From a virus: a stretch of 64,000 bases of DNA. Made by a program: the position numbers and the translations under genes. The notes below the pieces were generated by a model. The model searched no databases. It saw only the letters and a list, made by a program, of their open reading frames with translations, and was not told where the DNA came from. The first letter of the stretch is position 1, and each line of letters begins with the position of its first letter. The stretch is taken from the IMG/VR virus record IMGVR_UViG_3300019888_000001, positions 1-64,000 of that record; one strand, 5' to 3'. Shown one piece after another: positions 17,487 through 46,064 of this stretch.

Positions 17487-17515
17487 ACTCTATTACCTAG
17501 GAAGCGCCCCGTCAA
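17487..17515 (-). promoter_or_regulatory. Promoter inside the displaced scaffold tail
   Basis: Minus strand TTGACG, 17-bp spacer, TAGAGT, 5 nt before the ATG at 17481. The -35 lies in codons for KLDGALPR at the end of the HNH gene and the spacer covers its stop. The corresponding scaffold codons (KLEGVLPK) lack this -35, which suggests the HNH-linked copy is the original 3' end. Confidence 0.55.
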
Positions 17516-17873
17516 GTTTGGACTTCAGCATCTCAGCTGCCGCAGCCCTGGCGCAACCGCAGTTACAATTAAAGCACAAAACTCGCAGTTCGTCGGGAAA
17601 CTTATTTTTAACCAAATAAAAATACTGATCGCCGCCTCTAGTTCGTCTTTTTGCGCTTCCGCCACCATTTATGTGATCTAAAGTCAACCAAAGCATATTA
17701 GAAGTTCGACACCCGCATTCACAAGAACAACGAGGAGTATTGCCTCCATAATGACGGAAACAAGCAAGTTTGCGTAGTAAATAACTTTTTTTATTTGAAG
17801 CTTGCCTTTTGGCTTTTGTAAGTGGATTACGCCAGCGCAAAAGACCTTTTAAACGATAATAGTTTTTTGTCAT
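17493..17873 (-). CDS. HNH endonuclease fused to a scaffold-like C-terminal tail
   Basis: 126 residues. HNH module: CFRHYGGNTPRCSCECGC, LWLTLDHINGGGSAKRR, VLCFNCNCGCARA. Immediately after the last cysteines it ends AAAAEMLKSKLDGALPR, matching the end of the upstream scaffold protein, TAAEMLKAKLEGVLPK. It starts directly behind the scaffold stop (TAAATG). The simplest reading is insertion of the nuclease near the 3' end of the scaffold gene, with the original tail now read as part of the nuclease and a replacement tail on the scaffold. Confidence 0.85.
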   Translation of the reverse strand: MTKNYYRLKGLLRWRNPLTKAKRQASNKKSYLLRKLACFRHYGGNTPRCSCECGCRTSNMLWLTLDHINGGGSAKRRTRGGDQYFYLVKNKFPDELRVLCFNCNCGCARAAAAEMLKSKLDGALPR

Positions 17874-19202
17874 TTATTTTGGAAGAACCCCCTCCAATTT
17901 AGCTTTCAACATCTCAGCCGCGGTCTTATAGGCAGTTGGTTGCGGAATTTCTTCTGGAACATTTCCCGCGCCAGCGGCTGGCGTTCCGCCACGAAGTTTA
18001 GTCAATTGGTCATCCAGCGTAACATTCTTCTGGTGTAAGTCACTTACCATGTTCAAAAGAAGGGGAAAAACTTCGGCCTTATAGAAACGAGTCGCCAGTT
18101 CCTCGTTAGATAATGATGCCACATCAACAGATTGAACTCTCTCATGAGCATCGACGACCATTTTATCCCAGCCTTCGTCCCCGGTCTTTTTGAATACCGG
18201 AAGATCGGTTGAGAGTTTATTATACGACGCGTCTAGAGCCGTGACCCAATCTTCATGGAACTTGGCCGTTTGGCTTTTCTCTGCCGCTTCGCGAGCTTTT
18301 TGCATTTCCGCGAACTTACCGGCGGCGCCATCGATAGTGGATTGCTTAAGTTCTAACAACCGGTCTTGTTCGCTCAGCAAATGATCAAACCTGTTAATAT
18401 CCAGGCGGTTAAAATTTGCCGACAGTTCTGCTAATTTATCGCTCCTCTTATTAGGGTCTGGGTCGGAAAGAGCCGCCTGTAAATCACCAGGGGCAATCTC
18501 ATACTTCTTAGCCAGCGCTGTTAGGGCATTTTGAGCGGTCTTAAGAGGCGATGTAATTCTTTTCTTAAAGTCGTCAGTAGCTTCAACACGAGTAACTGAA
18601 AGTTCGTCTTCATAACGTTTAATCGTTTCCTCCATCTCGGTGACCTTAGAAGCGTCTACCGCAGTTGCTTTCTTCCTGAAGTCGTCGCGTTCTGCTTCAA
18701 GAGCTTTGATCTTACCTTCCGCAATAGCCAGGTCTCCGCGCACAGCTTTGAAAGCTGAACCAGCCTTTACAGTCATCATCTCTTCCGCTTTATCTAAAGC
18801 AGCTTTGGTAAGCTTTTCGGCCGGCGTTGGTCCAGTCGGCCCAGTTGCCGCTGGCTCAGGAGCGCCTGTAGGACCGGTTGCTGCCGGTTGCGTAGCGCCG
18901 GTAGGACCTGTGGCCGCAGGTTGGGGAGTTCCTGTTGGGCCTGTGGGCGGTTTGGGTAAAGAGACCGGACTTGGAATTACAATCGCCGAGGTGGATGGGG
19001 GAGCAGGCGTTGGAGCCGGTGTAGGAACCGGAGCAGGTGGCGTAATTGCCGTAGCGGCATTATCCACGGGGGGCTGCGCTCTGCGCATAACAAAATCTGG
19101 GTCCATTACACCATGCGGAAACAATTTGTCGAGTTCGGCACGGATTTTGGTGGGAGCCTGACCTTCGCCGGGGATTACAGTAGGAGCGGGGTTTTCGGCC
19201 AT
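17874..19202 (-). CDS. Scaffolding protein (probable)
   Basis: 442 residues. The N-terminal 130 residues are Pro/Ala/Thr-rich and contain four TGPTG blocks spaced by PAA-type linkers. The rest is charged and helical with long coiled-coil segments (AEGKIKALEAERDDFRKKA, EMQKAREAAEKSQTAKFHE). It lies between portal and major capsid genes, the classical place of the head scaffold, which guides procapsid assembly and leaves or is cut. No protease motif is visible. Translation starts one base after the stop of the upstream gene. Confidence 0.7.
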   Translation of the reverse strand: MAENPAPTVIPGEGQAPTKIRAELDKLFPHGVMDPDFVMRRAQPPVDNAATAITPPAPVPTPAPTPAPPSTSAIVIPSPVSLPKPPTGPTGTPQPAATGPTGATQPAATGPTGAPEPAATGPTGPTPAEKLTKAALDKAEEMMTVKAGSAFKAVRGDLAIAEGKIKALEAERDDFRKKATAVDASKVTEMEETIKRYEDELSVTRVEATDDFKKRITSPLKTAQNALTALAKKYEIAPGDLQAALSDPDPNKRSDKLAELSANFNRLDINRFDHLLSEQDRLLELKQSTIDGAAGKFAEMQKAREAAEKSQTAKFHEDWVTALDASYNKLSTDLPVFKKTGDEGWDKMVVDAHERVQSVDVASLSNEELATRFYKAEVFPLLLNMVSDLHQKNVTLDDQLTKLRGGTPAAGAGNVPEEIPQPTAYKTAAEMLKAKLEGVLPK

Positions 19203-26037: not shown

Positions 26038-26141
26038 TAAAACAGTATAATTCAAATCCCGAAATAAAGCCATATAAAAGATTGTCTTAAAGGCATAAAA
26101 ATAGTTGTAGATCAGCGTATTAGACGTTACTCTTAATAACC

Positions 26142-33105: not shown

Positions 33106-34211
33106 AAGAAGAAAAGCACGCGGAGTTCAGCCCGTCGTCTCTTAACAATTTGGAAGTCTGCCCCGGCTGGAGGCACAGACCCGATCAGGAAGGCAAGAAA
33201 AGTCCGGCCGCGGAACTCGGAACAAAGATCCACGAGGCGTTGGAGACTGGGAAGATCGACGAACTTCCAGATGAGGGCGACGCCAAACACATGGCGCGGC
33301 AGTGCGTGGACTTTATAGATTCCATTATGGCGGATCGACTGCCAGCAACTCCAACTCAGGACTTTCGCGAGCGAAAACTTACAATCAAGCTGGGCGAGGA
33401 TATGACGACCTACGGTACTCTTGACAGACTTATTATTTTTGGGCGCAAAGGTTTCTTGGTCGATTACAAGACCGGGCGCCGCGAAGTCATTGACGCCGAG
33501 CTAAACCTTCAAACTTCGGCATACGCATTGGGGGTTTTCCAAGCACATCCTGAACTCGAAACAATTGAGAGCCATATTCTCCTGCCGGCAAGAAACGAGA
33601 TCTCGAGCTACGAGTTCCCCCGCGCCGCTATGCCTGATATGTCGCTTCGAATCAATACTGTTATCAGGCGCGCAATGGAAAACAACCCAGCTTTATACAA
33701 CCCTCAAGCTGGCTTATGCGAGTTCTGCGCGCAGCAGGGGTCGTGCCCAGCCCTTGGTAAAAAAGCACTTTTGATTTCCGCGAAACTCGGCCCCGGCCTC
33801 GCAATTCCCCAATCACTCACGGTGAGCAAAGACCGCCCGCAGGATATCCCTCAGATCCTGGCTTTGGCGCCAATCATCGAATCGTGGGCGAAAGGACAGA
33901 GAGAAGAAGCTCTTCGGCTTAACCTTGAAGAGGGAGTCCAAATTGCCGGGTATCAGCGCGTCACTCGATCACTGCCACGGGCGGTGACCAGTGTTCTCGG
34001 TGCCTACGAAGCAGTCAAAGATAAGATTACACTCGAGGCGTATCTGGCTGCATGCAGTAAAGTTTCTGTTCCAGATTTAGAAGATTTTTTTGCTGAACAA
34101 GCCCCGAATAAGAAAAAAGGTAAGGCAAGACAAGAACTAGAAGATAGATTACGAAGCGCAGGGGTTCTAAGAGAATCAAGTGATATATACTATCTTAAAA
34201 AGAAAATATGA
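33102..34211 (+). CDS. RecB/Cas4-like PD-(D/E)XK nuclease with Fe-S cysteines
   Basis: 369 residues. His44 (GTKIHEALE), Asp108 (GTLDRLI) and Asp121/Lys123 (FLVDYKTG) with Gln137/Tyr141 (LQTSAYALG) make the complete RecB-family nuclease active site. Cys20 together with Cys206, Cys209 and Cys215 (CEFCAQQGSC) match the four-cysteine 4Fe-4S arrangement of AddB/Cas4-type enzymes. It resembles the phage DUF2800 family. Likely degrades or processes DNA ends during replication or recombination. The stop overlaps the LAGLIDADG gene. Confidence 0.8.
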   Translation: MKEEKHAEFSPSSLNNLEVCPGWRHRPDQEGKKSPAAELGTKIHEALETGKIDELPDEGDAKHMARQCVDFIDSIMADRLPATPTQDFRERKLTIKLGEDMTTYGTLDRLIIFGRKGFLVDYKTGRREVIDAELNLQTSAYALGVFQAHPELETIESHILLPARNEISSYEFPRAAMPDMSLRINTVIRRAMENNPALYNPQAGLCEFCAQQGSCPALGKKALLISAKLGPGLAIPQSLTVSKDRPQDIPQILALAPIIESWAKGQREEALRLNLEEGVQIAGYQRVTRSLPRAVTSVLGAYEAVKDKITLEAYLAACSKVSVPDLEDFFAEQAPNKKKGKARQELEDRLRSAGVLRESSDIYYLKKKI

Positions 34212-34684
34212 CACCGACTGATCTTCATTATGCAGCAGGACTTTTAGAAGGTGAAGGCCATTTTCAATGCTCCAAAGACCCGAAATTTCCTACATCTCGG
34301 AAATTTTGTATAACTACTTCAATGGCAGATATAGCTCCTCTAGAACGACTACAACAAATTATTGGCGGTAAAATTAGAGGCCCATTTATTAAAAGCTCAA
34401 ACCGAAAACCTCTATATAATTTAGCAATAGGAAGACATCAAAATTGTGTACCTATAGCTGCAGAACTGTTCCCTCTCATGTCTCCCCGTAGACAAGAGCA
34501 GATAAAAGTAATGCTAGAATGGGACTCAAGATGCAAAAAATTACTTTATACTAAAAACTATCCTCACGGGTCGATTGAACGAGCAGTCGGTACCCGGTGT
34601 CGTTGCAAAACATGCGATCCTAAAAGGCGAGAAATATCACGGGAGTTTACCCGTTTTAAACGTTTATCTGAAGAAAAGCATTGA
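34208..34684 (+). CDS. LAGLIDADG homing-type endonuclease
   Basis: 158 residues. LHYAAGLLEGEGHFQCSKD is a LAGLIDADG helix with the metal-binding Glu, followed by a typical single-domain fold (IIGGKIRGPFI, PLYNLAIGRHQN) and a zinc-like CRCKTCD near the end. It begins inside the stop of the nuclease gene (ATGA) and its stop overlaps the next promoter. A single-motif protein would act as a dimer. Confidence 0.85.
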   Translation: MTPTDLHYAAGLLEGEGHFQCSKDPKFPTSRKFCITTSMADIAPLERLQQIIGGKIRGPFIKSSNRKPLYNLAIGRHQNCVPIAAELFPLMSPRRQEQIKVMLEWDSRCKKLLYTKNYPHGSIERAVGTRCRCKTCDPKRREISREFTRFKRLSEEKH

Positions 34685-34709
34685 CGGTTCCCGCAAAACT
34701 TGATAAGGT
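34681..34709 (+). promoter_or_regulatory. Promoter overlapping a homing-nuclease stop
   Basis: TTGACG, 17-bp spacer, TAAGGT, 10 nt before the ATG at 34720. Its TTGA contains the stop codon of the LAGLIDADG gene, so the nuclease ends exactly where the next unit begins. Confidence 0.6.
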
Positions 34710-34719
34710 AAATATACAA

Positions 34720-34944
34720 ATGAAGTTTTGGTTACGCCCATCCCGCGAAGAGATTCTTCAAACCCACCTTCGCATTTGGATCGAAATCTCCATGAGGTTA
34801 GCCCAAGATAACGCAACCAAAGACCACATGATCGACGACCTTGATTTTACAATTGCCCATTTACTCGACAACCAAATAAACCAACACTGCACAGAAGTGA
34901 TGCAGCCAAAAACCCAAAAACCATACAAACCATACACATACTAA
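34720..34944 (+). CDS. Small helical protein, unknown
   Basis: 74 residues, MKFWLRPSREEILQTHLRIW, helical with a basic Tyr/Pro-rich tail. It begins a co-directional set of replication-linked genes. No motif recognised. The start is set by the promoter, not by the earlier TTG which is the -35 itself. Confidence 0.5.
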   Translation: MKFWLRPSREEILQTHLRIWIEISMRLAQDNATKDHMIDDLDFTIAHLLDNQINQHCTEVMQPKTQKPYKPYTY

Positions 34945-34948
34945 GACA

Positions 34949-35674
34949 ATGAAACACTCATTCAAAACACCCCCTCAGCCTGAAGTTGCGGAACAGGCCG
35001 AGAATACTGAAACAACGCTAGCCCGTCCCCTCCAACCTATGCCGCAATTTAGCGGAGACTGGGATTACAACGATACCCGCAAGCCGCGAATTAACTTGGT
35101 TCACAAGACAAGCGATTCTGAGCTAATTGAAAAGTTCGGAATTGGATCATTCGTCTTCCAGAAAGAAGTAAAGCTAAGCAACGGCAAAGATCCTTTGCTG
35201 GTGACGGCCCTGCGCGCGGGTAAGGACTTCATCCAAAAGCTTCCTTTCGGCGCTCCTGACATGCCGCTCGTGTTCAAAACCAAAGACGAAGTTCTAGCCA
35301 ACGGCGGTTCGTTTAACAAGAAAGACGAGGCCACCCAAAGTTATTACATTCCTAGGGCGCACATTCTGTTTTTGGTAGAAATGCCTGAAAAAACAGATGA
35401 CGAAGACTCGTCCATGTTTCCTTATGAGTTTGAAGGAAAACAATACGGCCTCGCGGTCTTGACGGTCAGTTCCAGTGCGTTCACCGCTACGGCAGTTGAA
35501 CTCGCCACACTATGCAACTTCAACGCAGTGATGCGTAAAGGTATGGAGTATGGTAAACTTGAACTTACCTCAGCGCAGCGTATGTCTCCACGTTACAGTT
35601 GGATAGTCCCGGAAATTCGTTTCAAAAGTGAAAACGACGCGAACTTCGTAAAGTTTATACAAAGTTTGCTTTAA
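34949..35674 (+). CDS. Conserved phage DNA-metabolism protein, unknown
   Basis: 241 residues. Acidic N-terminus, then mixed alpha/beta (DSELIEKFGIGSFVFQKEVKL, PLLVTALRAGKDFIQKLPFG, FPYEFEGKQYGLAVLTVSSSAFTATA). It sits between a RecB-like nuclease and MazG-like proteins, where many phages carry an ssDNA-binding or annealing protein; I cannot confirm an OB fold. The stop overlaps the next gene by one base. Confidence 0.5.
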   Translation: MKHSFKTPPQPEVAEQAENTETTLARPLQPMPQFSGDWDYNDTRKPRINLVHKTSDSELIEKFGIGSFVFQKEVKLSNGKDPLLVTALRAGKDFIQKLPFGAPDMPLVFKTKDEVLANGGSFNKKDEATQSYYIPRAHILFLVEMPEKTDDEDSSMFPYEFEGKQYGLAVLTVSSSAFTATAVELATLCNFNAVMRKGMEYGKLELTSAQRMSPRYSWIVPEIRFKSENDANFVKFIQSLL

Positions 35675-35982
35675 TGGATATAACTCAATTAGCCGCAGAC
35701 CTCGGCATCAAAACCGAAATGGGAAAAGAACTTCTCAAAGAAGCTATCGATCTTGCCGTCGTCCTTGACGGCAAGAACGCTGACTACAGTTCGGCTAACA
35801 TCAGTAAATTCGGGTTGTTTGGAATCGTAGTTCGGCTTAGTGATAAGCTTGAGCGATTAACTAATCTTCTCGATAAAAAAGCGCTCGACTCACCTTGTAA
35901 CGAGCCTATAGAAGATACATGCCGCGACGTAGCCGGATACGGTTTGATCGCTAAAATAGTAGCCAGAAAAGGATGGAGATAA
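35674..35982 (+). CDS. DUF1599 / nucleotide modification-associated domain (MazG-like)
   Basis: 102 residues. KNADYSSANISKFGLFGIVVRLSDKLERL and EPIEDTCRDVAGYGLIA are the hallmark segments of the DUF1599 (Nmad1) family, helical proteins linked to modified nucleotides in phages. Related MazG-like folds hydrolyse (d)NTPs. A second nucleotide-pool protein (DUF5664-type) is at 40309-40665, so this phage may use an altered nucleotide or clear one. Confidence 0.7.
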   Translation: MDITQLAADLGIKTEMGKELLKEAIDLAVVLDGKNADYSSANISKFGLFGIVVRLSDKLERLTNLLDKKALDSPCNEPIEDTCRDVAGYGLIAKIVARKGWR

Positions 35983-35983
35983 T

Positions 35984-36493
35984 ATGCCCGCAAGCCCAAA
36001 TGACCCGCACCCTAACGAATACACGTTTGCAGAAAAACTAGCCGCGGTTAACGCAGGCGTCATGGCACCCGAAGATTTGGGTGTGCTACCCACTCCAGGA
36101 GATGCCTCGGAGGCTACAGCTGGTGGATTAGAAATAAAACCAGCTACACCGGAAGAACTCGCAAAGAAGCCGGAAACAGGCGACTATATAGTGTTTCAGG
36201 CCGCAGTTGTTCCACTAGATTTAAGAGCAACCTGGTCTGAACTTGATGCTAAAGCGACTAATAAAATCTTGCCTTTTACATTTGATAAAGAGGCATGGAA
36301 AGACGCGCACAAACATGAGCATGTAATTCAAGCCAAGTTTCAATGCGGCACAGCTAGCGGAGCGATAGAAGGAAAGTTCTCGGATAAAGTATTAGGTCTG
36401 TGCAATCTATTAGACGCAGCCTCTAAGCAAATACGAGAGTTTTACGCGAATGAAAAAAGCAAGACCGATACCGCAACACCACCGATGGCGTAG
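35984..36493 (+). CDS. Hypothetical protein
   Basis: 169 residues, N-terminal half Pro/Glu/Ala-rich and probably flexible, C-terminal half more ordered (YIVFQAAVVPLDLRATWSEL, VIQAKFQCGTASGAIEGKFSDKVL). No family. It lies within the replication block, one base after the DUF1599 gene stop. Confidence 0.5.
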   Translation: MPASPNDPHPNEYTFAEKLAAVNAGVMAPEDLGVLPTPGDASEATAGGLEIKPATPEELAKKPETGDYIVFQAAVVPLDLRATWSELDAKATNKILPFTFDKEAWKDAHKHEHVIQAKFQCGTASGAIEGKFSDKVLGLCNLLDAASKQIREFYANEKSKTDTATPPMA

Positions 36494-36632
36494 CTGGTTT
36501 ACACCTTCAGTCCTAGCCCAACGAACAGGTATCACTGACTCCAGAGGTCAGATCTATATGGTTCAACCTGACGGAAGTATCAAACGTATAAGTGAAAGAA
36601 AGATTGGACGGAACAAGAAAACCAATGAATAG
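36450..36632 (+). CDS. Small basic protein
   Basis: 60 residues, overlapping the previous gene by 44 nt in another frame. Arg/Lys-rich with IYMVQPDGSIKRISERKIG. The overlap lowers confidence, but the ending reads like a true small phage protein. It directly precedes the structured element at 36638-36732. Confidence 0.4.
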   Translation: MKKARPIPQHHRWRSWFTPSVLAQRTGITDSRGQIYMVQPDGSIKRISERKIGRNKKTNE

Positions 36633-36637
36633 TGAGA

Positions 36638-36732
36638 AAAGATACGTTAAAAATAGAGTCGGAGAAAAACTCCGAACGGGCCTCTTCTCGCCCCAACCAT
36701 GGGGAGCCTTGTTTAACATTTAACGTATCTTT
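36638..36732 (+). ncRNA. Structured RNA element or complex terminator
   Basis: A perfect 14-bp closing stem (AAAGATACGTTAAA / TTTAACGTATCTTT) encloses ~67 nt that hold at least two further hairpins: TCGGAG-AAAAA-CTCCGA and either GGGC/GCCC or CCCC/GGGG with a 6-nt loop. The 3' strand runs into ATTTTT and the ATG of the Endo VII-like gene follows 7 nt later. The multi-branched shape fits a cis-regulatory RNA or a terminator with an elaborate loop. No known riboswitch or ribozyme core was recognised. Confidence 0.5.
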
Positions 36733-36738
36733 ATTTTT

Positions 36739-37185
36739 ATGAAATTTTGTCCTAAATGCAGAAAAACAAAAAGTTTGAAAGCGTTTAATAAAAACCAAAA
36801 AAGATACGACGGCATTCAAGGATGGTGCTCGTCTTGCAGATGTAAAAATTATCAAGAAAGTCCAAAACGAAAAGCGATTATAGCTAAAGCCACTAAATGG
36901 AATTATTCTCACCCCGAACAACGTTTAAAAATAATTAGGAAAAGTAACTGGAAAAGACTTCACGGGCTTACTGAAACTGAATTTTTGAGTTTACTAAAAC
37001 TTCAAAAATCAAAATGTGCTATCTGTAAACAATCATTTCCTAAATTTCCTTCTGTGGATCATAACCATAAAACAGGAAAAATTAGAGGACTACTCTGTGG
37101 AAAACGTAACTCAGGATTAGGATTCTTTAAGGACACAGTTAAATTTCTGCGTAACGCAATTAGATATTTAAATGCAAACGATTAG
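36739..37185 (+). CDS. Recombination endonuclease VII-like nuclease
   Basis: 148 residues. N-terminal zinc knuckles (MKFCPKCRKTKSLKAFNK, WCSSCRCKNY), then CAICKQSFPKFPSVDHNHKTGKIRGLLC, the VDHNHxTGKIRGLLC signature of the Endo VII family. It overlaps the polymerase start by 14 nt and has a structured RNA element just upstream. Either a junction resolvase or a mobile nuclease inserted before the polymerase gene. Confidence 0.85.
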   Translation: MKFCPKCRKTKSLKAFNKNQKRYDGIQGWCSSCRCKNYQESPKRKAIIAKATKWNYSHPEQRLKIIRKSNWKRLHGLTETEFLSLLKLQKSKCAICKQSFPKFPSVDHNHKTGKIRGLLCGKRNSGLGFFKDTVKFLRNAIRYLNAND

Positions 37186-38956
37186 TTTGGACTACGAAAC
37201 TGAATACAGTAAAGACTACTCTATTCGAGACATGGGCGCCTGGGCTTATTGCAACGACCCACGCTTCAACGCATATCTGTTAGCTGTGGCTTGGGAAGAT
37301 GGGCGAACTTGGATAGGGAACCCCAAAGACTTTGACTGGGAATCTATTAACGGGTTAGACTGGGTTGCTGCGAATGCCGGTTTTGAATGGGAAGTAACCG
37401 AACGATTACGTAAAGACGGCGTGGTTCCAGCGCACATTAAACCCCGAAAAATTTATGACGTGCTAGATTTAAGCCGATACCTGGGGTATCCGGGAAATCT
37501 AAACGCCGCATGTCAGTATCTTCTCAACGTAAAAATTGACAAAGGGATGCGAGACCGCGCCAAAAACCAGACCTGGGTCTCAATGTCGCCAGATTTCCAG
37601 GATGCAATGAAGCAATACGCACTTCTGGATGCGGTTCATGAATTATCAATTTGGCAAAAGCACGGGCACAAAATGCCCGAAGATGAGCGCATGCTTTCTC
37701 GACTAACCCGTATCATGTGCCGCCAGGGCGTGCCCATCGATGTGCCGGCTGTAGATGACGCCATTTCAAAACTCGAAGCGTATCTCGCCGACATACGAAG
37801 CCGAATTCCTTGGACCACTGATCCCACGATTCCGGTTATGTCACCGAAGGCGATGGCTAAAGAATGCCTTAAAAAAGGAGTGGCTCCGCCTACGTCGATG
37901 GCCAAAGACTCCGAGGCCTTTGCTGCATGGTTGAAAGAGCATGGTGATATGTTTCCATTCGCGGTAGCGATAGGCCAATATCGGAGTGCTAACAATCTTT
38001 TGAAAAAACTCCAGACCATGAAGCGGCGAACGCGACTGGATGGAGTTATGCCTTTTGGTTTGAAATATTTCGGAGGTCACACTGGCAGGGACTCAGGAGA
38101 TTCAGGATTCAATGTTCAAAATTTACACCGCGAGCCCTACACCTGCACGCCCACTAAAGGGGAGCATTTTAAGATCGATCTGCGCGGCATGATCGCCGCG
38201 CCAACAGGAAAACTACTTTTAATTGCAGACGAAGTGGCTATTGAGCCATGCGTATTGGCGGTTCTATCCGAAGATAAAGAACTTCTGAAGCGCTTATCAA
38301 CCGGCGAAGACGTTTACGAAGCGTGGGCCCGGCTTACGAAAGGTTACGCTGACCCAAGACCGCTAAATGATGTGGATCCCCGGATGCGACGGCTTTGTAA
38401 AGTAGAGCAATTGGGGTTATCGTACGGGGCCGGCGTGGAGAAATGTATCAAGATAGCCAAAATGTGGGCTGGCATTGATTTAACGTATCAACAAGCCCAG
38501 CTTCAGGTGGCTAAATTTAGAGAGCGACCGTTCATCCCTAGATTTTGGCAGAAGCTCGAAAGCCTGATGACACGAAGCGCTGGAGAAGATTTTCAATTCG
38601 AGCTGCCGAGTGGAAGAATAATGAATTACCGAAAAGTCCAAACAGTTAATGGACTTAGCGCGGAGATACCTAAATTAGGGCAAATGCTTCGTTGTCGTTT
38701 TTGGGGTGGAGCAATTTGTGAAAATATTATCCAAAGCGTTGGCCGTGATGTATTTATGCATCATATTTTAGAACTCCAAAAAAAAGGTATAAATATAATT
38801 TGTAGAATTCATGATGAGGTTCTGTGTTTAGTTGATGAAGATAAAGCCGAGGAAAGCTTAAAACTAGCCTTACAGATAATGTCTACCCCACCGCCCTGGT
38901 TAACAAATCTTCCTATTCGGGCTGCCGGACATCTTTCCCAAAAATATTGTAAATGA
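37172..38956 (+). CDS. DNA polymerase, family A, with 3'-5' exonuclease
   Basis: 594 residues, short for the family. Exonuclease domain: SLDYETEYSKDYS (Exo I, residues 5-17), ANAGFEWEV (67-75) and YALLDAVHEL (about 149-158). Polymerase motif A is IADEVAIEPCVLAVL (353 Asp) in place of the usual DYSQIELRVLA; motif B RRLCKVEQLGLSYG (Lys410, Tyr418); motif C ICRIHDEVL. It is the replicative polymerase candidate and acts with the primase, helicase and ligase of this window. The odd motif A keeps the catalytic Asp and the Glu but has lost the Tyr/Gln pair. Confidence 0.9.
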   Translation: MQTISLDYETEYSKDYSIRDMGAWAYCNDPRFNAYLLAVAWEDGRTWIGNPKDFDWESINGLDWVAANAGFEWEVTERLRKDGVVPAHIKPRKIYDVLDLSRYLGYPGNLNAACQYLLNVKIDKGMRDRAKNQTWVSMSPDFQDAMKQYALLDAVHELSIWQKHGHKMPEDERMLSRLTRIMCRQGVPIDVPAVDDAISKLEAYLADIRSRIPWTTDPTIPVMSPKAMAKECLKKGVAPPTSMAKDSEAFAAWLKEHGDMFPFAVAIGQYRSANNLLKKLQTMKRRTRLDGVMPFGLKYFGGHTGRDSGDSGFNVQNLHREPYTCTPTKGEHFKIDLRGMIAAPTGKLLLIADEVAIEPCVLAVLSEDKELLKRLSTGEDVYEAWARLTKGYADPRPLNDVDPRMRRLCKVEQLGLSYGAGVEKCIKIAKMWAGIDLTYQQAQLQVAKFRERPFIPRFWQKLESLMTRSAGEDFQFELPSGRIMNYRKVQTVNGLSAEIPKLGQMLRCRFWGGAICENIIQSVGRDVFMHHILELQKKGINIICRIHDEVLCLVDEDKAEESLKLALQIMSTPPPWLTNLPIRAAGHLSQKYCK

Positions 38957-39041
38957 GAGCCTCACGTAGATCGTATCTAAGCCCAGGACAGATAAGCGAA
39001 AAGTGGCTTATATTATACGTGCTTAAGACTACAGTTAATCC

Positions 39042-39872
39042 GTGGATATACAAACTAAACCTACACAATCAGAGTTAATTGCTTGGGCAGCCGGCTTTTT
39101 TGACGGAGAAGGATGCTGGAATGCGGACTTTGATAAAAAAACTGGTAGAGCTAGGCTAAAGGCTAAAGTGACAGTCTGCGATAAAGACTATGTTTTTAAA
39201 CTCCAAACCATTGTAGGGGGGAGTGTATACGGCCCTCTAAAACCTTCGGGTTTTGGTAAACTGCCGCGCTGGCAGTGGGGCTACTCAAACTCTCTAGATA
39301 CAATTGCGCTATTTTTGGCGTTTAAACCTTTCTTAGGAAAAAGACGAACTAGTCGTTTTGAAGAGCTTTTTAAAAAATGGGCTGTTCCATTTGGACCAGC
39401 ATACGATAAGCTGAAGCGATATGAATGGTACGATATTCGTATGGCCGATCCCAAAAAGTATGAAGATGCCCGGCGGTTAGCCAAAAAGTATGGAGTGACA
39501 GACCAAGTTATTTCGCAGATACTTAACTCCAGACTTATGACTTGTTATATTTCTGGAAAAATGCGAGGCCTAAAAGACTTCGGATTTCCGGCATTCCGTA
39601 AAGCTGCGGCAGCTTTACGGACTAAAAATTGGCCCGTAGTATCTCCTGCAGAATTAGATTTAGGAGATAATATTAATATACAGAACGTATCAAGTTTGAA
39701 TATAGCAAAAATTTTCCAGCGCGATTTTGCTGCTTTGAAAAAATGCCATGTAGTGGCTCTTCTTCCAAATTATACGACTTCTGAAGGAGCACACTATGAA
39801 AAAAAGATAGCTGAAAAATATGGCCTTAAGATTTTACCAATCGAGAAAATAGAGCGACTTCCAATACGATAA
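39042..39872 (+). CDS. LAGLIDADG endonuclease fused to a DUF4406-like domain
   Basis: 276 residues from GTG. Residues 12-125 are a LAGLIDADG domain (LIAWAAGFFDGEGCWNADF). Residues ~143-164 read as a helix-turn-helix (ARRLAKKYGVTDQVISQILN). From Met166 the protein is MTCYISGKMRGLKDFGFPAF through HVVALLPNYTTSEGAHYEKKIAEKYG, the DUF4406 (nucleoside deoxyribosyltransferase-like) family. The internal ATG at 39537 could start the 111-residue DUF4406 protein on its own. The fusion suggests the nuclease invaded the 5' side of a nucleotide-metabolism gene in frame. Confidence 0.8.
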   Translation: MDIQTKPTQSELIAWAAGFFDGEGCWNADFDKKTGRARLKAKVTVCDKDYVFKLQTIVGGSVYGPLKPSGFGKLPRWQWGYSNSLDTIALFLAFKPFLGKRRTSRFEELFKKWAVPFGPAYDKLKRYEWYDIRMADPKKYEDARRLAKKYGVTDQVISQILNSRLMTCYISGKMRGLKDFGFPAFRKAAAALRTKNWPVVSPAELDLGDNINIQNVSSLNIAKIFQRDFAALKKCHVVALLPNYTTSEGAHYEKKIAEKYGLKILPIEKIERLPIR

Positions 39873-40051
39873 TGAAAACAAAATACAGGTTTGTGGAATC
39901 GAAAAAGGCGTATACCGAGCAGTGTTACTATTATACCGAGAAAAAAAGTTTTTGGGCACTTGGACACGCGTCCATGACAGTTGGGCCATGGATAAAGCAG
40001 AAGGGTGGAAAAAGTATACATCAATTATTACCAATACATTTAAGAATGTAA
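39872..40051 (+). CDS. Possible small protein overlapping the next gene
   Basis: 59 residues, MKTKYRFVESKKAYTEQCYYY. It starts in a TAATG overlap with the fused nuclease gene, which supports translation, but 130 nt are shared with a more family-like reading frame at 39922-40140. Either two real overlapping genes or one gene split by a frameshift. Confidence 0.35.
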   Translation: MKTKYRFVESKKAYTEQCYYYTEKKSFWALGHASMTVGPWIKQKGGKSIHQLLPIHLRM

Positions 40052-40140
40052 ACACCGTGCTGCATGAAGTTCCAGATAAACTACGTGATATTCAAGAAGT
40101 GAAGGCATGGTTAAAACTAACCGATGACACCCAACTCTAA
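39922..40140 (+). CDS. Small protein of the 'AWL' family
   Basis: 72 residues from GTG; an ATG at 39988 gives 50 residues. The end, TVLHEVPDKLRDIQEVKAWLKLTDDT, resembles CAEVPAELYPDKELTAAWLNINNGT in the protein at 41160-41360, and KKAMLAWIRLTHD at 40124-40312. These short proteins form a local paralogous family of unknown function. Confidence 0.5.
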   Translation: MLLLYREKKFLGTWTRVHDSWAMDKAEGWKKYTSIITNTFKNVNTVLHEVPDKLRDIQEVKAWLKLTDDTQL

Positions 40141-40312
40141 AGCTAAATTAACATCTGCGATGTTAGATGCGATTTCATATAAGTTCCGTTTTCCCTATTT
40201 GGTTGAATACATAAAACTTTGTGCCCCGAAAGAAATACAAAAAGACAAGAAAGCAATGCTCGCATGGATACGTTTGACACACGATTTACCGGTTACTATG
40301 GAGGATATGTGA
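40124..40312 (+). CDS. Small protein of the 'AWL' family
   Basis: 62 residues, helical, ending KDKKAMLAWIRLTHDLPVTMEDM. It overlaps the previous gene by 17 nt and the next by GTGA. Same local family as 39922-40140 and 41160-41360. Confidence 0.5.
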   Translation: MTPNSKAKLTSAMLDAISYKFRFPYLVEYIKLCAPKEIQKDKKAMLAWIRLTHDLPVTMEDM

Positions 40313-40665
40313 ACAAACCTGTCACATATAATGAGGATGCATTGCAGAATACAAACCCTAAAGATAAAATAGGAGAAACCAAACCGTCACTTGCGCTAGT
40401 GCCAACCAGCCTTCTCGTGCCACTTTCCGAAGTTATGAAACTTGGCGCAAAGAAATATGGCGCGTGGAACTGGCGTAATACCAATCCGAAAGCAATGGTT
40501 TATTACAATGCAATGCTTCGACATATACATGCTGCTCTAGATCGCGAGGATACTGATCCAGAGAGTAGGCAATCTCATTTAGCTCATGTAAGTGCATGCT
40601 GTTTAATCTTGCTAGATTCAGCAAAATGTGGTAATTTAATAGATGATCGACCGCCAAAAAATTAG
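40309..40665 (+). CDS. DUF5664-type dATP/dGTP diphosphohydrolase-like protein
   Basis: 118 residues from the GTG that overlaps the previous stop. TNPKDKIGETKPSLALVPTSLL, MKLGAKKYGAWNWRN, MLRHIHAALDREDTDPESRQSHLAHVSACC and LIDDRP are the ordered motifs of this MazG-like family, which hydrolyses dATP or dGTP and is linked to base-modified phage genomes. It ends LIDDRPPKN; a second DNA copy of LIDDRP plus stop follows the LAGLIDADG gene downstream (41143-41163), indicating that the 3' end was displaced by the nuclease. Confidence 0.8.
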   Translation: MNKPVTYNEDALQNTNPKDKIGETKPSLALVPTSLLVPLSEVMKLGAKKYGAWNWRNTNPKAMVYYNAMLRHIHAALDREDTDPESRQSHLAHVSACCLILLDSAKCGNLIDDRPPKN

Positions 40666-41149
40666 TCACTTTTCTCTTTCTTATATCGCAGGATTGTTTG
40701 ATGGAGAAGGATATTTAGGCATATCCCGAGATAAGAAAATTCATTCAAAACGAGGGTTACTGTTTAGAGTATACGGAGGATTAAGAATCAGAGAAAAATT
40801 CATTGTGAAAGCTTTTGCTAAACGATTCGGCGGGACTGTGTGCAAGCGAATAGCACAGAACCCAAACTGGGCTGATACATATGTATGGCAAATTTATGGG
40901 TGCGATCTCGAAAAATTTCTTAAAACTGTTGCGTCATATTTGATTCTCAAACAACCTCAAGCCCGAATTATCTTGCGGTGCAGACAGCTAACGAAAACCA
41001 ATACTCATACTAGAATAATGCCAAAGTGTAAATATATAGCTTACCAAAATCTAACCAAACAAATTAATAAGTTGAACTTCCGAGGAAAGAAAACCAACCA
41101 AAAAAAATCCGAAGGCTCCTTGAGCCGAAACAACACAAAACCCTTATAG
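40643..41149 (+). CDS. LAGLIDADG homing-type endonuclease
   Basis: 168 residues, starting inside the last codons of the DUF5664-type gene. LSYIAGLFDGEGYLGISRD is the LAGLIDADG helix; the following VYGGLRIREKFIVKAFAKRFGG and WQIYGCDLEKFL belong to the fold. The basic C-terminal tail is Lys/Asn-rich. It separates the DUF5664 gene from a remnant of that gene's original end. Confidence 0.88.
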   Translation: MIDRQKISHFSLSYIAGLFDGEGYLGISRDKKIHSKRGLLFRVYGGLRIREKFIVKAFAKRFGGTVCKRIAQNPNWADTYVWQIYGCDLEKFLKTVASYLILKQPQARIILRCRQLTKTNTHTRIMPKCKYIAYQNLTKQINKLNFRGKKTNQKKSEGSLSRNNTKPL

Positions 41150-41163
41150 ACGACAGACCGTGA
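41143..41163 (+). pseudogene. Displaced 3' end of the DUF5664-type gene
   Basis: CTT ATA GAC GAC AGA CCG TGA encodes LIDDRP-stop, identical to residues LIDDRP at the end of the DUF5664-type protein (TTA ATA GAT GAT CGA CCG), with five differences all synonymous. The TGA overlaps the GTG of the next gene, the same GTGA junction used elsewhere here, so this is probably the original end of the gene. Confidence 0.6.
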
Positions 41164-41360
41164 ATATGCGAACTGTGTATAAATACACAAAAATTTTTAG
41201 TGAGCTGTGGTGCGCAGAAGTGCCCGCCGAACTGTACCCTGATAAGGAACTTACTGCTGCATGGCTAAACATTAACAATGGAACCATGATGCGAGCTTCA
41301 GAGTTACACTGGCGTACTCCATATTGGAATCTGCCTACAAATACGACAGGACCAAGATGA
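41160..41360 (+). CDS. Small protein of the 'AWL' family
   Basis: 66 residues from GTG (or 64 from the ATG two codons later). YTKIFSELWCAEVPAELYPDKELTAAWLNINNG resembles the 39922-40140 protein. Its GTG overlaps the remnant stop of the DUF5664 gene, and its stop overlaps the next start as ATGA. Confidence 0.5.
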   Translation: MNMRTVYKYTKIFSELWCAEVPAELYPDKELTAAWLNINNGTMMRASELHWRTPYWNLPTNTTGPR

Positions 41361-41614
41361 CCAGAGAAACCATTTTTATAATACTGGCGATTTTTACAGG
41401 ACTCTGGACGTTTATCGGAACCCTAAGGTGGTATTGGCGGATAACGACACCAGGGGAGGGATTAGATAACTATAACTATAATAACCGGCAAATAAGGTAT
41501 CTGATGTTTCTGCACGGGCCCGTAGTTTGGTGTTATGACCTTCATTGCGCGTTATTCACCTGGCTTGGCCGCGAAACCAAATTCGAGAAAGCTTACCGGA
41601 AGATACGCGAATGA
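41357..41614 (+). CDS. Membrane protein, unknown
   Basis: 85 residues: an N-terminal membrane helix (IFIILAIFTGLWTFIGTL) and a second weaker one (YLMFLHGPVVWCYDLHCALF). Coupled by ATGA on both sides. Confidence 0.5.
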   Translation: MTRETIFIILAIFTGLWTFIGTLRWYWRITTPGEGLDNYNYNNRQIRYLMFLHGPVVWCYDLHCALFTWLGRETKFEKAYRKIRE

Positions 41615-41838
41615 AAGCCGTAATGTATGGTGAAGAATCGGTTTACTTGGGCGGCTATGAACGAGTTATGTATCGAACAGGAATTCCTGATGAATTGTAT
41701 CCTGATATTGAATGGATAGATCCAGATTATATATCTCATCAGCTGGCATACCGTCCCGTAAACGTTAAGCCGACCAAAAACCCGAAGGCTTGCCGCGCTC
41801 CTTGGAATGAGCTTTCGGACAGCATCTGCGATTTTTGA
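41611..41838 (+). CDS. Small protein, unknown
   Basis: 75 residues. RTGIPDELYPDIEWIDPDYI recalls the EVPAELYPDKEL stretch of the 41160 gene, so it may be a distant member of the same local family. No other motif. Confidence 0.45.
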   Translation: MKAVMYGEESVYLGGYERVMYRTGIPDELYPDIEWIDPDYISHQLAYRPVNVKPTKNPKACRAPWNELSDSICDF

Positions 41839-41885
41839 TCGGCTAAGTAACAGTATAATTAAATAAATAACTTGTAAAGGTCCAC

Positions 41886-42737
41886 ATGGACACCGCCCAC
41901 ACACAGTTTGATTTTACCTCCTGCCCTAAAAGTGGGCAAGGTTGTCATAAATGGTTGTTTTATATTTCGTGTAAAGCAGTTGATGAAGGCCTAACAGATG
42001 AAGAAGCAGAACCTTTGATTCGCAAAGCAATGACGCGCGCACCAACACCGCCGAGTGAGATCATGGACGCGCTACGAAGTGCGCGCAGGGAAGAAAGAGT
42101 GCCGTCGATGGTGTGGAACCCGAGGAACGAAACCGCGATTAAGGAAATCGTGGGCAAAGACTTGTTGCCGGGGTTGAACAAATACCAAAACTTCGAGCCG
42201 CTATCCAGACTACCCCAACCGGAAATGTGGATAGACCAGTTATTTCCGGGAAATCCTTTATTATGTATCGGGAAAACCAGTTCATTATTCCGAACAAAAC
42301 CAAGAGAAGAATGGCGCGGGTTGGAAAAATTCAATTCATTGATCGTTCCAAGTCCTATGACCGCGGTAAAAGGAAGAACAAAAGCAGGAACTTTATCAGA
42401 GCACTCGTTAGACAATACCGGGCCGCGGCGCTATCTAATTCTCGAATTCGATCAGGGGCCTGAACTAGACCAGCTAAAGTTAATATTTCATCTTGCCGAT
42501 TATGGCCCACTTGTGCTAATATGCCGATCAGGGGGAAAAAGTTTGCATGCGTGGTTTAGAGCAAAAGACGAAGAAGATTTAAAACTCATAACGTTTATGC
42601 AATACGGGGTAAGCCTTGGCGCCGATCCGCGAACTTGGCTGGCCAGTCAGTTCGTTAGGCTCCCTGACGGAACTCGGTTTGAAAACAAAAACCCCCAATC
42701 TGTAATTTACTACGACCCAGAACAACTTCCACAATGA
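41886..42737 (+). CDS. Primase, PrimPol (AEP)-like
   Basis: 283 residues. RRYLILEFDQGPELDQL carries the acidic E187/D189 pair of the archaeo-eukaryotic primase fold, and LVLICRSGGKSLHAWFRAK (215-224) the conserved SGGKSxHxW element with the catalytic His; FVRLPDGTRFENKNPQSVIYY closes the domain. The N-terminal third is a helical domain with CPKSGQGCHKWL. It is coupled to the D5 helicase downstream, so the pair makes a primase-helicase. TATAAT lies 26 nt upstream and AAAGG gives a normal ribosome-binding site. Confidence 0.75.
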   Translation: MDTAHTQFDFTSCPKSGQGCHKWLFYISCKAVDEGLTDEEAEPLIRKAMTRAPTPPSEIMDALRSARREERVPSMVWNPRNETAIKEIVGKDLLPGLNKYQNFEPLSRLPQPEMWIDQLFPGNPLLCIGKTSSLFRTKPREEWRGLEKFNSLIVPSPMTAVKGRTKAGTLSEHSLDNTGPRRYLILEFDQGPELDQLKLIFHLADYGPLVLICRSGGKSLHAWFRAKDEEDLKLITFMQYGVSLGADPRTWLASQFVRLPDGTRFENKNPQSVIYYDPEQLPQ

Positions 42738-44149
42738 AGAAAGAATTTAGGACACCACCTCTAACACCAACGGGCGTATATCCTGTAAACGATCTCGACC
42801 GCGCAGCAAGGTTCGTGCAACACCTGAAGGGTGAAGCGCTGTATATCTCGTCTTGGAAACAGTGGGTAATTTGGGATGGCAAGCATTGGGCGCGCGATAT
42901 CACCGGTGGCGAAATCATGCGCCGAGCGATGCAAATACCGAAGATTCTGGAGGCAGAGGCTTCAGTTATCACTGATTCAGGGTTACATAAGAAAGCTATG
43001 ATGGCCGCACTCCTATCCGGTAACGAAGAACGGTTAACGAAGATGGTGAAGCTCGCAAGAAGTTTTCCAGAAGTCGACAAATCGGAGATGGTGTTTGACC
43101 AGAACCCGTGGATCGTTGGAGTCCAGAATGGTGTTATAGAGCTTCAGTCGAAACCATTTTTATTCAGACCTGCAAAACTAGAAGATTATGTATTACGGAA
43201 AATGAATGTTGAGTATGACGCGGTGGCTACCTGCGAGCCTTGGATGGATGCTATTCAATTAAGCCTGCCTAACCCCGCAGTCAGGAACTTTGTGCAGCGC
43301 GCGGTAGGTTACAGTATTACAGGAAGCGTCGCAGAGCAGATATGGTTTTTCATGTATGGGCACGGTCAGAACGGCAAATCTACCTTTATAGAAACGATTT
43401 CCGATATTCTTGGCGAGTATGCCCATAAAGCGCCAGCAAAGTTGTTTCTCCAAAACAAGCATGGCACAACGCCGGAAGGATCGATCGCGCAACTAAATGG
43501 CCGACGATTCGTGGTAGGCAGCGAGATTCCAGAATCTGCTCAATTGGCAGAAGGGCTTATTAAAGACTTAGCGTCCGATGACAAATTAAGTGGGCGCCTA
43601 TTGTATGAAAACGATCGGACCTTCGCGCCGACCCACCACCTGTGGTTAAGTGGAAATGTAAAACCGGTTATCAAGTCTACTGATTTAGGAACTTGGCGCC
43701 GAATTAAGCTTATCCCGTTCGACGTCACCATCCAAAATCGAGATCTGGAGATTAAAAATAAGCTCCGCGCCGTAGCGCCGGGTATACTCAATTGGGTTTT
43801 AGATGGCTGTAGGCAATGGCAAACCTCTGGTATGCAAGCCCCACCAGAAGTGGAAGTAGCTACCACAGGCTACCAAGAAGAAGAAGACCTGGCCGGGCAG
43901 TTCATTTCTGAGGTATGTATCTTAGATGAAGCGGAGCGTATTGCCAAAGGAGACCTTTATGCGGCTTTTAAGGCTTGGGCTATTTTAAATGGCGAAAATG
44001 AACGATATATACCTGGCATCAAGACATTTGGGAAGCGTATGAGCCGCCCTGGAATCCGGGAAATGCTCGATCCAGACCCTAAAAAGCGCACCCGAATGTG
44101 GGCCGGAATCAATCTAGCAGAGCCAGGCCGCTGGCCTAAACTGGCATAA
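42734..44149 (+). CDS. D5/P4-type superfamily 3 helicase
   Basis: 471 residues. Residues ~90-170 correspond to the D5_N region; Walker A MYGHGQNGKSTFIE at 209-216; Walker B region RRFVVGSEIPE; sensor 1 HHLWLSGNVKPVI and TWRRIKLIPF further on. C-terminal winged-helix-like segment (YAAFKAWAILNGE). Hexameric 3'-5' replicative helicase of the P4/D5 family, working with the PrimPol gene it overlaps. An inverted-repeat array follows directly. Confidence 0.88.
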   Translation: MKKEFRTPPLTPTGVYPVNDLDRAARFVQHLKGEALYISSWKQWVIWDGKHWARDITGGEIMRRAMQIPKILEAEASVITDSGLHKKAMMAALLSGNEERLTKMVKLARSFPEVDKSEMVFDQNPWIVGVQNGVIELQSKPFLFRPAKLEDYVLRKMNVEYDAVATCEPWMDAIQLSLPNPAVRNFVQRAVGYSITGSVAEQIWFFMYGHGQNGKSTFIETISDILGEYAHKAPAKLFLQNKHGTTPEGSIAQLNGRRFVVGSEIPESAQLAEGLIKDLASDDKLSGRLLYENDRTFAPTHHLWLSGNVKPVIKSTDLGTWRRIKLIPFDVTIQNRDLEIKNKLRAVAPGILNWVLDGCRQWQTSGMQAPPEVEVATTGYQEEEDLAGQFISEVCILDEAERIAKGDLYAAFKAWAILNGENERYIPGIKTFGKRMSRPGIREMLDPDPKKRTRMWAGINLAEPGRWPKLA

Positions 44150-44160
44150 ACGCCAAAAAC

Positions 44161-44262
44161 TGAACGATCCTGAACGATTTGAACGCATTTTTATAAACCC
44201 CCTTTACACCACCACCCTACACACACTTTTAGATAAGCCCTAATATCGTTCAGGATCGTTCA
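44161..44262 (+). repeat. 18-bp inverted repeat with internal direct repeats
   Basis: TGAACGATCCTGAACGAT at 44161-44178 and its exact complement at 44245-44262. Each arm holds two TGAACG units, and a third lies at 44180. The 66 nt between the arms are C-rich with very few G on this strand. It lies between the helicase and an HNH gene and fits a replication origin or an operator array. Confidence 0.65.
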
Positions 44263-44287
44263 CAAAGCCTTAAATGTGTAAAGAATT

Positions 44288-45208
44288 ATGACAAAAGAGC
44301 AAAAAGCTTCATATGCTCGGGCCCGGTACGCCGCCAACCCAGAGCGATTACGGGAGATCGGTAGGCTTTCTATGCAGAAGCGGCGCCTTGATCCTAAGAA
44401 GAGAGCGCAAATAAACGCGCAGCACCGAGAGTATCGTAAGCGCCACCCCGAATTGGTGCAGGCGCGACATAGATCTTGGTATCTAAGAGATACGGCCAGA
44501 ATTCTATCGCGGCATCGAGCCTATTATAGAAAAAATCGTGCTCGGTTAATAGCCCAGGGGGTTGTGCGCACGCGCAATCGTCGGCGAGCTGATCATGCCT
44601 TTCGCCTGCGACATGTATTAGCCAAGCGTATCTGGGCGGCTCTGCAACCTGGCATCAAGAAATCTATGCGCACCCGACAATTACTAGGCTGCACGCCTGC
44701 TGAGTTTAAAGCTTGGATTGAAGACCTGTTTCTTCCAGGCATGCGCTGGCAAAACCGTTCGTTATGGCACATTGACCATATCAAGCCTGTTAGCAGTTTC
44801 GATTTAACCACTGAATCAGGACAACGCGCGGCATTTCACTACTCAAACTTCCGCCCACTGTGGGCTCGTGATAACCTGAAAAAAGGCGCAAAACAAACTG
44901 TTGACATGACCGCGAATCAGGTTGATGATAAACACATGGATCAAAAATTTTTGGATGGTGCGGATTACGGTATTAAAAGCTACGCAGAAAAGAACTCGGG
45001 AAACGCCCCTGGTCTGAACAGTCCAGCCGGTGGATCTGCGGATCTCACGAAAGGCTGCAGATTGTCGGGCTGTGGTGGATCGGAACAATCGATTGATAGC
45101 GTGCAGGCGTCTTCGGATGTACTTCGTTTAATCAGTCAAGGTAGCGGTCCTGATTTAGGACCCGAATCAAAACGAATTAACTCTCCCGGCGCAACAGCGA
45201 AAAACTAA
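44288..45208 (+). CDS. HNH endonuclease fused in frame to a small phage gene
   Basis: 306 residues. Residues 1-200: Arg-rich arm, then LLGCTPAEFKAWIEDLFLPGMRW, LWHIDHIKPVSSFDLT and NFRPLWARDNLKKGAK, the same HNH type as 25429-26037. From Met217 on (MDQKFLDGADYGIKSYAEKN) the sequence changes to a Gly/Ser-rich 90-residue protein that has its own promoter and start inside the fusion. The nuclease therefore appears joined in frame to the 5' side of an existing gene. Confidence 0.8.
   Translation: MTKEQKASYARARYAANPERLREIGRLSMQKRRLDPKKRAQINAQHREYRKRHPELVQARHRSWYLRDTARILSRHRAYYRKNRARLIAQGVVRTRNRRRADHAFRLRHVLAKRIWAALQPGIKKSMRTRQLLGCTPAEFKAWIEDLFLPGMRWQNRSLWHIDHIKPVSSFDLTTESGQRAAFHYSNFRPLWARDNLKKGAKQTVDMTANQVDDKHMDQKFLDGADYGIKSYAEKNSGNAPGLNSPAGGSADLTKGCRLSGCGGSEQSIDSVQASSDVLRLISQGSGPDLGPESKRINSPGATAKN
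44901..44929 (+). promoter_or_regulatory. Promoter inside an HNH fusion gene
   Basis: TTGACA, 17-bp spacer, GATGAT, 6 nt before the in-frame internal ATG at 44936. The spacing equals that of the stand-alone leaderless promoters. Confidence 0.45.
44936..45208 (+). CDS. Small Gly/Ser-rich protein (internal start)
   Basis: 90 residues, MDQKFLDGADYGIKSYAEKN to SPGATAKN, the C-terminal part of the HNH fusion. It has a leaderless-type promoter and is followed by TAATG coupling to the next gene, which has similar Gly/Ser/Pro composition. Likely the original gene before the nuclease joined it. Confidence 0.45.
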   Translation: MDQKFLDGADYGIKSYAEKNSGNAPGLNSPAGGSADLTKGCRLSGCGGSEQSIDSVQASSDVLRLISQGSGPDLGPESKRINSPGATAKN

Positions 45209-45522
45209 TGGCACAAGAATATATTGAAGGATTTCAAACCGGCGATCCCCGGAAAGCTGCAACTACAGTAGGACCGGGCGAAAGATATCAAGCTCGCGGA
45301 GACACCAGTCCTCCGAGTTCGAATGAAGACGCAGCATTCCACGGTCTTACCCGAGGACAAGAAGGCTCGCCCAGCGGGAACCCATTCGGTATCGGCGACC
45401 CGAACAGCCCCCGCGATGTAATGAAAGTTATGGACACGGGCTCCGGCGTGGAAGAAGGCATCAGTTCGAAACCTGTAGCCACGTTCGGTCGTACCACAGG
45501 TAGATCGTTAGCCGGCGAATAA
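45208..45522 (+). CDS. Gly/Ser/Pro-rich protein, unknown
   Basis: 104 residues, low complexity and probably disordered (GDTSPPSSNEDAAFHG, SGNPFGIGDPNSPRDV). It starts in a TAATG overlap. No motif. The composition resembles the preceding gene, so the two may act together in the virion. Confidence 0.5.
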   Translation: MAQEYIEGFQTGDPRKAATTVGPGERYQARGDTSPPSSNEDAAFHGLTRGQEGSPSGNPFGIGDPNSPRDVMKVMDTGSGVEEGISSKPVATFGRTTGRSLAGE

Positions 45523-45525
45523 TTG

Positions 45526-45554
45526 TTGACAATTTTAGCGGTTTTTCGTAAAGT
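45526..45554 (+). promoter_or_regulatory. Promoter
   Basis: TTGACA, 17-bp spacer, TAAAGT, 10 nt before the ATG at 45565. Near-identical, spacer included, to the promoter at 32849-32877. Confidence 0.65.
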
Positions 45555-45564
45555 AAAAACACAG

Positions 45565-45750
45565 ATGAGAACATTAAAATATAGTCTTGCAGTGATTATT
45601 ATTTCAGTTGCCGCCGTCATTGCCGGAGTTGGTTTGATAAGCATCTTTGTTATATGGCCCTTCGGTGTCGTTATCCTGCCCGTCGTGGGCTTCGGGTCAG
45701 CTTTGTTGTGGGCGATTCAGTATATAATTAATTACGACTCACGTTTATAA
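45565..45750 (+). CDS. Membrane protein, unknown
   Basis: 61 residues with two or three hydrophobic helices (YSLAVIIISVAAVIAGVGL, VIWPFGVVILPVVGFG). The start follows from the promoter position. Confidence 0.55.
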   Translation: MRTLKYSLAVIIISVAAVIAGVGLISIFVIWPFGVVILPVVGFGSALLWAIQYIINYDSRL

Positions 45751-45752
45751 AA

Positions 45753-46064
45753 ATGATTGGAACCTGGAAAATTGAGCCGCGATACTGGCCTGAACTGCTT
45801 GGGAAAGCCCCTGTCCCGGTAGAAACCGATCCGAAAACCGAAACCAAACCCCAGAAGCCTTTGTTCCATGGCCCATTATGGCAGACCACTAAGATGTGCC
45901 TTCAATGCCGAAAAGCCAAAGTTACAGGGAAAGCTAAATTCTGCGCACTCTGCACGAAAGCTCGCAACGCCCGGGCGGCTCGTAAATCGTATAAAAAGCT
46001 TAATCCTCATAAGTTGGTCACAGGCCCCCTTCAGTATGAGGCACTTACAACTGACCAAAATTGA
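45753..46064 (+). CDS. Zinc-ribbon protein, unknown
   Basis: 103 residues. MCLQCRKAKVTGKAKFCALC gives two CxxC pairs, followed by a strongly basic helix (ARNARAARKSYKKLN). Likely binds zinc and perhaps nucleic acid. The Pro/Glu/Lys-rich N-terminal part is flexible. Confidence 0.55.
   Translation: MIGTWKIEPRYWPELLGKAPVPVETDPKTETKPQKPLFHGPLWQTTKMCLQCRKAKVTGKAKFCALCTKARNARAARKSYKKLNPHKLVTGPLQYEALTTDQN

Follow-up and report, generated by a model that had tools for sequence, protein, structure and literature searches.

The closest described counterparts of the arrangement reported here are the mobile ORFs (mORFs) of fungal mitochondria, in which inserted C-termini are known for atp6 of Allomyces, for atp6, atp9, cox2 and nad3 of Glomus, for atp9 of Rhizopus and for cox2 of Mortierella (PMC3630166). 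A LAGLIDADG or GIY-YIG gene lies in the 3' end of the target gene, a diverged C-terminus is fused to that gene in frame and the native C-terminus is left behind; the nucleotide sequences of the inserted (C) and native (C*) ends diverge far more than the proteins do (PMC3630166). The free-standing homing endonuclease genes (HEGs) of phage T4 overlap the upstream ORF by about 20 bases, are promoterless and are translationally coupled; the textbook members are intergenic and cut hundreds to thousands of bases away (PMC2988022). An engineered counterpart is the HomeR drive, which sits in an essential gene, inserted at the 3' end of the coding sequence together with a re-coded rescue of that end (PMC7968924).

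In the window (the whole stretch of 64,000 nucleotides analysed), a LAGLIDADG gene overlaps the end of a gene of the DUF5664 (dATP-dGTP diphosphohydrolase N-terminal) family. This target gene (40309..40665, plus strand) encodes 118 aa, and its product matches Pfam PF18909 (E=1.6e-28) and PHROG 801, 'dATP/dGTP pyrophosphohydrolase', with relatives in 475 phage records. The phrog_2252 family is labelled endolysin yet matches this diphosphohydrolase family (window 40309-40662), and its label looks wrong. The nuclease gene (40643..41149, plus strand, 168 aa) is assigned by profile and PHROG to the single-motif I-MsoI/I-CreI type: the LAGLIDADG motif is present with its acidic residue (AGLFDGEG, residues 16-23), the family profile A3 matches I-MsoI across positions 5-144 (best E=1.8e-16), and the protein matches phrog_5046 (E=2.2e-26); as a single sequence it stays below the threshold of Pfam LAGLIDADG_3 (18.9 bits; cut-off 22.5). 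The label of phrog_5046, HNH endonuclease, also looks wrong, as the family matches LAGLIDADG proteins (window 40643-41146). The homodimeric LAGLIDADG endonucleases I-MsoI and I-CreI, the former of which the profile matches along its length, are intron-encoded, whereas the window nuclease is free-standing and appears to carry a substitute gene end. Its ATG (40643) lies 23 bases within the target gene, which recalls the promoterless, coupled HEGs of T4 and, more particularly, mobA and mobC, whose ATG is likewise inside the upstream gene; the insertion within a coding end is different from the intergenic position of the textbook T4 genes (PMC2988022). The conserved part of the nuclease stops near LNFRG, and its last residues are read, in another frame, from what we regard as the displaced native end. 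The next ORF (41160..41360, plus strand, 66 aa), for which single-protein scans found no relatives, starts with GTG. Two small ORFs behind the remnant share a related stretch (EVPAELYPDKE at 41215-41249 and GIPDELYPDIE at 41678-41712, 71% over 35 nt) and are likely paralogues.

The end of the target gene is present twice. The hexapeptide LIDDRP is encoded as TTA ATA GAT GAT CGA CCG at 40636-40653 and as CTT ATA GAC GAC AGA CCG at 41143-41160, and the downstream copy runs into TGA (41161-41163), which overlaps the GTG (41160) of the next ORF as GTGA; these positions, and the finding that five of the 18 bases differ and that each difference is synonymous, hold as originally predicted. The upstream gene, which had been taken to end at LIDDRP, actually ends LIDDRPPKN-TAG (40665), and the repeat comprises 15 codons, with a gap-free alignment of LLDSAKCGNLIDDRP (from 40609) and LLEPKQHKTLIDDRP (from 41116). 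Eight residues are common to the two copies (two with identical codons, six with synonymous ones) and seven differ, so the claim of a purely synonymous difference stands for the motif and falls for the whole repeat. Direct comparison of the two ends gave a score of 36, and the maximum among 8,000 random placements was 31. With a family profile built from the ends of 53 distinct DUF5664 relatives, the gene itself scored 39.2 bits and the remnant, in second rank, 28.6 bits over 15 columns; the next best position in the 64 kb scored 3.5 bits, and null positions in unrelated loci, 490,755 in number, reached at most 10.2 bits. Judged from this ranking, the remnant at 41116-41163 belongs among the genuine gene ends of the DUF5664 family. 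Its score falls to 18.8 bits when three more upstream codons are included, and the homology therefore begins near 41116. The nuclease ORF is thus flanked by two copies of one gene end, the first fused to the gene and the second displaced. We annotate the upstream copy (40609..40665, plus strand, LLDSAKCGNLIDDRPPKN and stop) as the putative element-borne substitute 3' end, with a left boundary that is approximate and taken from the start of homology with the remnant, and the downstream copy (41116..41163, plus strand, LLEPKQHKTLIDDRP-TGA) as the probable displaced native 3' end, the polarity being adopted by analogy with a pair of Vibrio phages.

This pair was reached by a tblastn search with the window nuclease, which identified a LAGLIDADG gene behind thyX in Vibrio phage 496E54-1 (31% identity between the two nucleases in alignment A2). 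In the nuclease-free Vibrio phage 166E36-1, thyX ends GGTTGGATTCA-ACACCGTCAACTGTTAGATAATCATACAAAGTGGTAA, and comparison of the two genomes places the empty site between GGTTGGATTCA and ACACCGTCAACTG. The left arms are identical at 911 of 911 nt. The insert of 496E54-1 is 477 nt long, begins GAATAGGCAGCTAATAAAAGGACATTGTTATGGAAAATAA, and consists of 12 substitute thyX codons (ending NRQLIKGHCYGK and stop) plus the nuclease; it is followed by the native thyX end (CAACACCGTCAACTG..., ending HRQLLDNHTKW and stop), identical to 166E36-1 for at least 39 nt. As in the window, the last residues of the nuclease are encoded in another frame by the displaced end. The same occupied allele is found in 495E54-1, and native-type ends in 277E43-1 and ICP1. 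The comparison identifies the upstream copy as that of the element and the downstream copy as native, and demonstrates that a relative of the window nuclease was inserted with a substitute thyX end, displacing the native one. Of the first 12 bases past the predicted junction, six differ between the copies, in the window and in Vibrio alike.

A second case exists in the same window, on the minus strand. A gene for a 442-aa protein (17874..19202), scaffold-like by its position near the capsid gene and with no relatives found in the databases, ends AEMLKAKLEGVLPK and stop. Directly after its TAA starts an HNH endonuclease ORF (17493..17873), recognised by tblastn from its relationship to annotated phage HNH endonucleases and by the ORF layout, which ends in a remnant: the putative displaced native end, AEMLKSKLDGALPR and stop (17493..17537), is in frame with the HNH ORF. 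The two ends align with a score of 59 against a null maximum of 27, and the duplicated end originally suspected here is thus real; two unrelated nuclease families in one phage, LAGLIDADG at the DUF5664 gene and HNH at 17874-19202, each have their own copy of a target end. Putative homing nucleases abound in the record. Besides these two cases, nine further ORFs were recognised in the window, seven HNH-like (7559-8104, 14058-14507, 16743-17153, 22072-22665, 25429-26151, 44288-45208 and 50967-51539) and two LAGLIDADG (34208-34684 and 39042-39533), none of which showed a convincing duplicated end, and one more HNH-like ORF lies beyond it (record 80380-80991). At 39042-39872 the LAGLIDADG domain and the HTH-like stretch behind it share one open frame with a DUF4406 (nucleoside deoxyribosyltransferase-like) domain, as a fusion or a start-site overlap; a duplicated end was not found there.

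Duplicated gene ends beside homing nucleases, which the original prediction had proposed to seek in phage genomes, were surveyed at 73 LAGLIDADG loci by comparing left and right flanks in three frames, with exchanged flanks as the control; a first profile, made from eight LAGLIDADG proteins, was too diverse for scanning. Comparable structures are present in IMG/VR contigs, and clear duplicated ends were seen at four loci (L117, L120, L127 and L177), of which L117 and L120 concern thyX (Pfam Thy1); the copies of L127 share 19 of 21 residues with nine synonymous codons, and in L177 the nuclease is located at the start of a DUF5131 gene, that is, in a 5' form. With the Vibrio and window cases included, about six of the 73 loci have such ends, and most of the loci showed none in the flank comparison. 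Matches at L162 (tandem nuclease motifs), L171 (tRNA-like in appearance) and L031/L178 (low-complexity frames) were discounted. The HNH genes of phages ANB28, Suppi, ctuNt529 and Munch showed no duplicated end. In Pseudomonas phage KIL4 (L026 1085-2811), a LAGLIDADG gene is located between two ORFs that are both annotated as thymidylate synthase; the flank test revealed no end remnant beside thyX.

In T4, segF, segA and mobB showed no duplicated end, and a score for mobA was discounted as artefactual, since the compared windows overlap on this short ORF. The mobC gene, however, begins MNYDRIY, the same as nrdG behind it, a duplication of only seven codons that lies in an extended divergent part of nrdG. 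In phage Paracelsus (L190 283-1582), the nrdG start is occupied by another HEG, one that has a NUMOD-like domain, so that both this gene and T4 mobC (L187 42446-43538) are found at the same position. In Paracelsus, the native start of nrdG (MNYDRFYPCDFVN) has become the fused N-terminus of the HEG, the left arm being identical to that of the nuclease-free CM8 at 320 of 324 positions, and the nrdG behind it has the substitute start MNYDRIYPCCFVN; in this 5' version the left copy is native and the right copy the substitute. These observations suggest that the nrdG start is the target of mobC, a target that PMC2988022 lists as unknown, and T4 itself apparently uses the substitute-terminus arrangement, with mobC looking like a 5'-end member.

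The reading that we consider highly probable is that a free-standing HEG invaded the target gene at the 3' end of its coding sequence and brought with it a diverged substitute 3' end. The nuclease would recognise the end that is conserved in alleles lacking a nuclease, around the LLD/E codons, and the break would be repaired from a nuclease-bearing genome, which places a copy of the insert between the half-sites. The insert would begin with the substitute end, fused in frame to the target gene, and the enzyme would thereby stay whole; as the start codon of the nuclease lies within this substitute end, the nuclease would be translated by coupling. The native end would persist behind the nuclease, forming the right half-site for homing and retaining its junction to the next gene, which presumably was coupled to the target gene before the insertion. 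Because the nuclease stop (41149) shortly precedes the GTG (41160), this coupling may survive. The original prediction of a nuclease inserted with a recoded end of its target thus keeps its core, an own copy of the end, as indicated by the duplicated ends in the window and the Vibrio empty site, and loses its purely synonymous character. Its wording had also left room for the downstream LIDDRP copy being the one brought by the nuclease; by the Vibrio analogy, the upstream, fused copy would be that of the element and the downstream one the displaced native end.

That opposite polarity, with a native upstream copy and a downstream LIDDRP-TGA brought by the nuclease, is quite improbable. In its favour, the gene body continues into the upstream copy and no empty-site allele of the window locus is known, but the Vibrio pair has a foreign upstream and a native downstream copy, and in the window it is the downstream copy that has a native-looking stop/start overlap; the natural end of one DUF5664 relative (L084) is TLIDDRP-TGA, whose stop shares a TTGA with a TTG start. 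A LAGLIDADG motif was absent from the 1.2 kb behind the gene in 80 of 80 DUF5664 relatives. Searches for kin of the window phage found no close nuclease-free relative of the phage or locus, and the native copy is therefore assigned from the Vibrio analogy and from the overlap of stop and start codons. No kin turned up when the downstream ORF, the nuclease, the primase and the scaffold were each used in single-protein scans, and a polymerase scan gave one closer contig (L011, 52%), which ends inside the gene. Two direct copies flanking the insert could also stem from drift after a simple tandem duplication of the gene end or after a target-site duplication. Such an origin seems very unlikely, since the copies share just two of eight codons at shared residues and the duplication is accordingly not recent, the upstream copy in Vibrio belongs to the 477-nt insert and does not resemble the native sequence, and a drifting copy that no longer ends a gene is not expected to retain LIDDRP exactly. 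Although LAGLIDADG nucleases often reside in introns and inteins, a group I intron, an intein or a translational bypass joining the gene to the downstream copy is hardly credible here: the gene reaches its stop codon ahead of the nuclease body, the nuclease occupies a different frame, the ORF and the copies fill the insert, and no Rfam match at E<=1 was found in 33000-46000. A classical T4 free-standing HEG, which leaves neighbouring coding ends intact, does not fit the displaced coding end either. A six-residue match by chance has a negligible probability; the motif is short, but the longer alignment that had been proposed as a refutation extends the repeat to 15 codons, the profile and placement scores are far above every null, and several independent cases occur elsewhere.

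A further alternative concerns the origin of the divergence, namely that the substitute end is a duplicate of the same end, recoded synonymously by selection because unchanged copies were cut. The geometry of the locus demands some difference near the junction, where six of 12 bases differ: the substitute comes immediately after the left half-site, which is native, and an unchanged copy would restore the site and allow precise deletion by recombination, so divergence is necessary and, judged from this geometry, would serve to destroy the recognition site. In six cases taken together, the codon is retained at 22 of 68 shared residues, against 29.7 predicted for random synonymous choice with local usage. 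This deficit is small (roughly 1.9 SD, an estimate and not a formal test), a donor with other codon usage would give an equal one, and seven of the 15 residues in the window differ as well, as expected for homologues. The synonymous divergence is compatible with saturation among homologues, with perhaps a small deficit in codon identity; it is not clearly above saturation and does not show that selection favoured recoding. Since codon identity is close to the random expectation, a diverged homologous donor suffices. Literal recoding is thus unlikely, and the apparent 'recoding' probably stems from a diverged homologous donor that was under selection at the protein level, the most likely source of the difference in the proposed invasion.

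In short, the architecture is known from fungal mitochondria and its occurrence in phages is provisionally new; the accessible parts of the phage literature searched (PMC2988022, PMC10448857, PMC12724721, PMC2248197, PMC3468402 and PMC7344957) do not describe it. The phage cases are different from the fungal mORFs in their very short ends (about 10-30 codons), in the use of HNH besides LAGLIDADG nucleases and in the mirrored 5' form. HomeR is an engineered Cas9 split drive in Drosophila (PMC7968924), whereas the phage element is natural and nuclease-encoded, with a divergence that probably comes from a homologue. On balance, we lean towards regarding the substitute terminus as a general, largely unrecognised route by which phage HEGs (LAGLIDADG, HNH and Mob-type, including T4 mobC) enter conserved 3' or 5' coding ends, acting as home-and-rescue drives of natural origin in which the displaced remnant directly reveals the target. 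Such a route would account for a nuclease that sits harmlessly in a conserved coding end without intron or intein, would make the target sites of uncharacterised phage HEGs readable from the remnant and the native upstream half, and would offer a natural parallel to engineered home-and-rescue drives in genetically tractable T4-like phages. It also calls for caution, as gene ends beside phage nucleases may have foreign descent.
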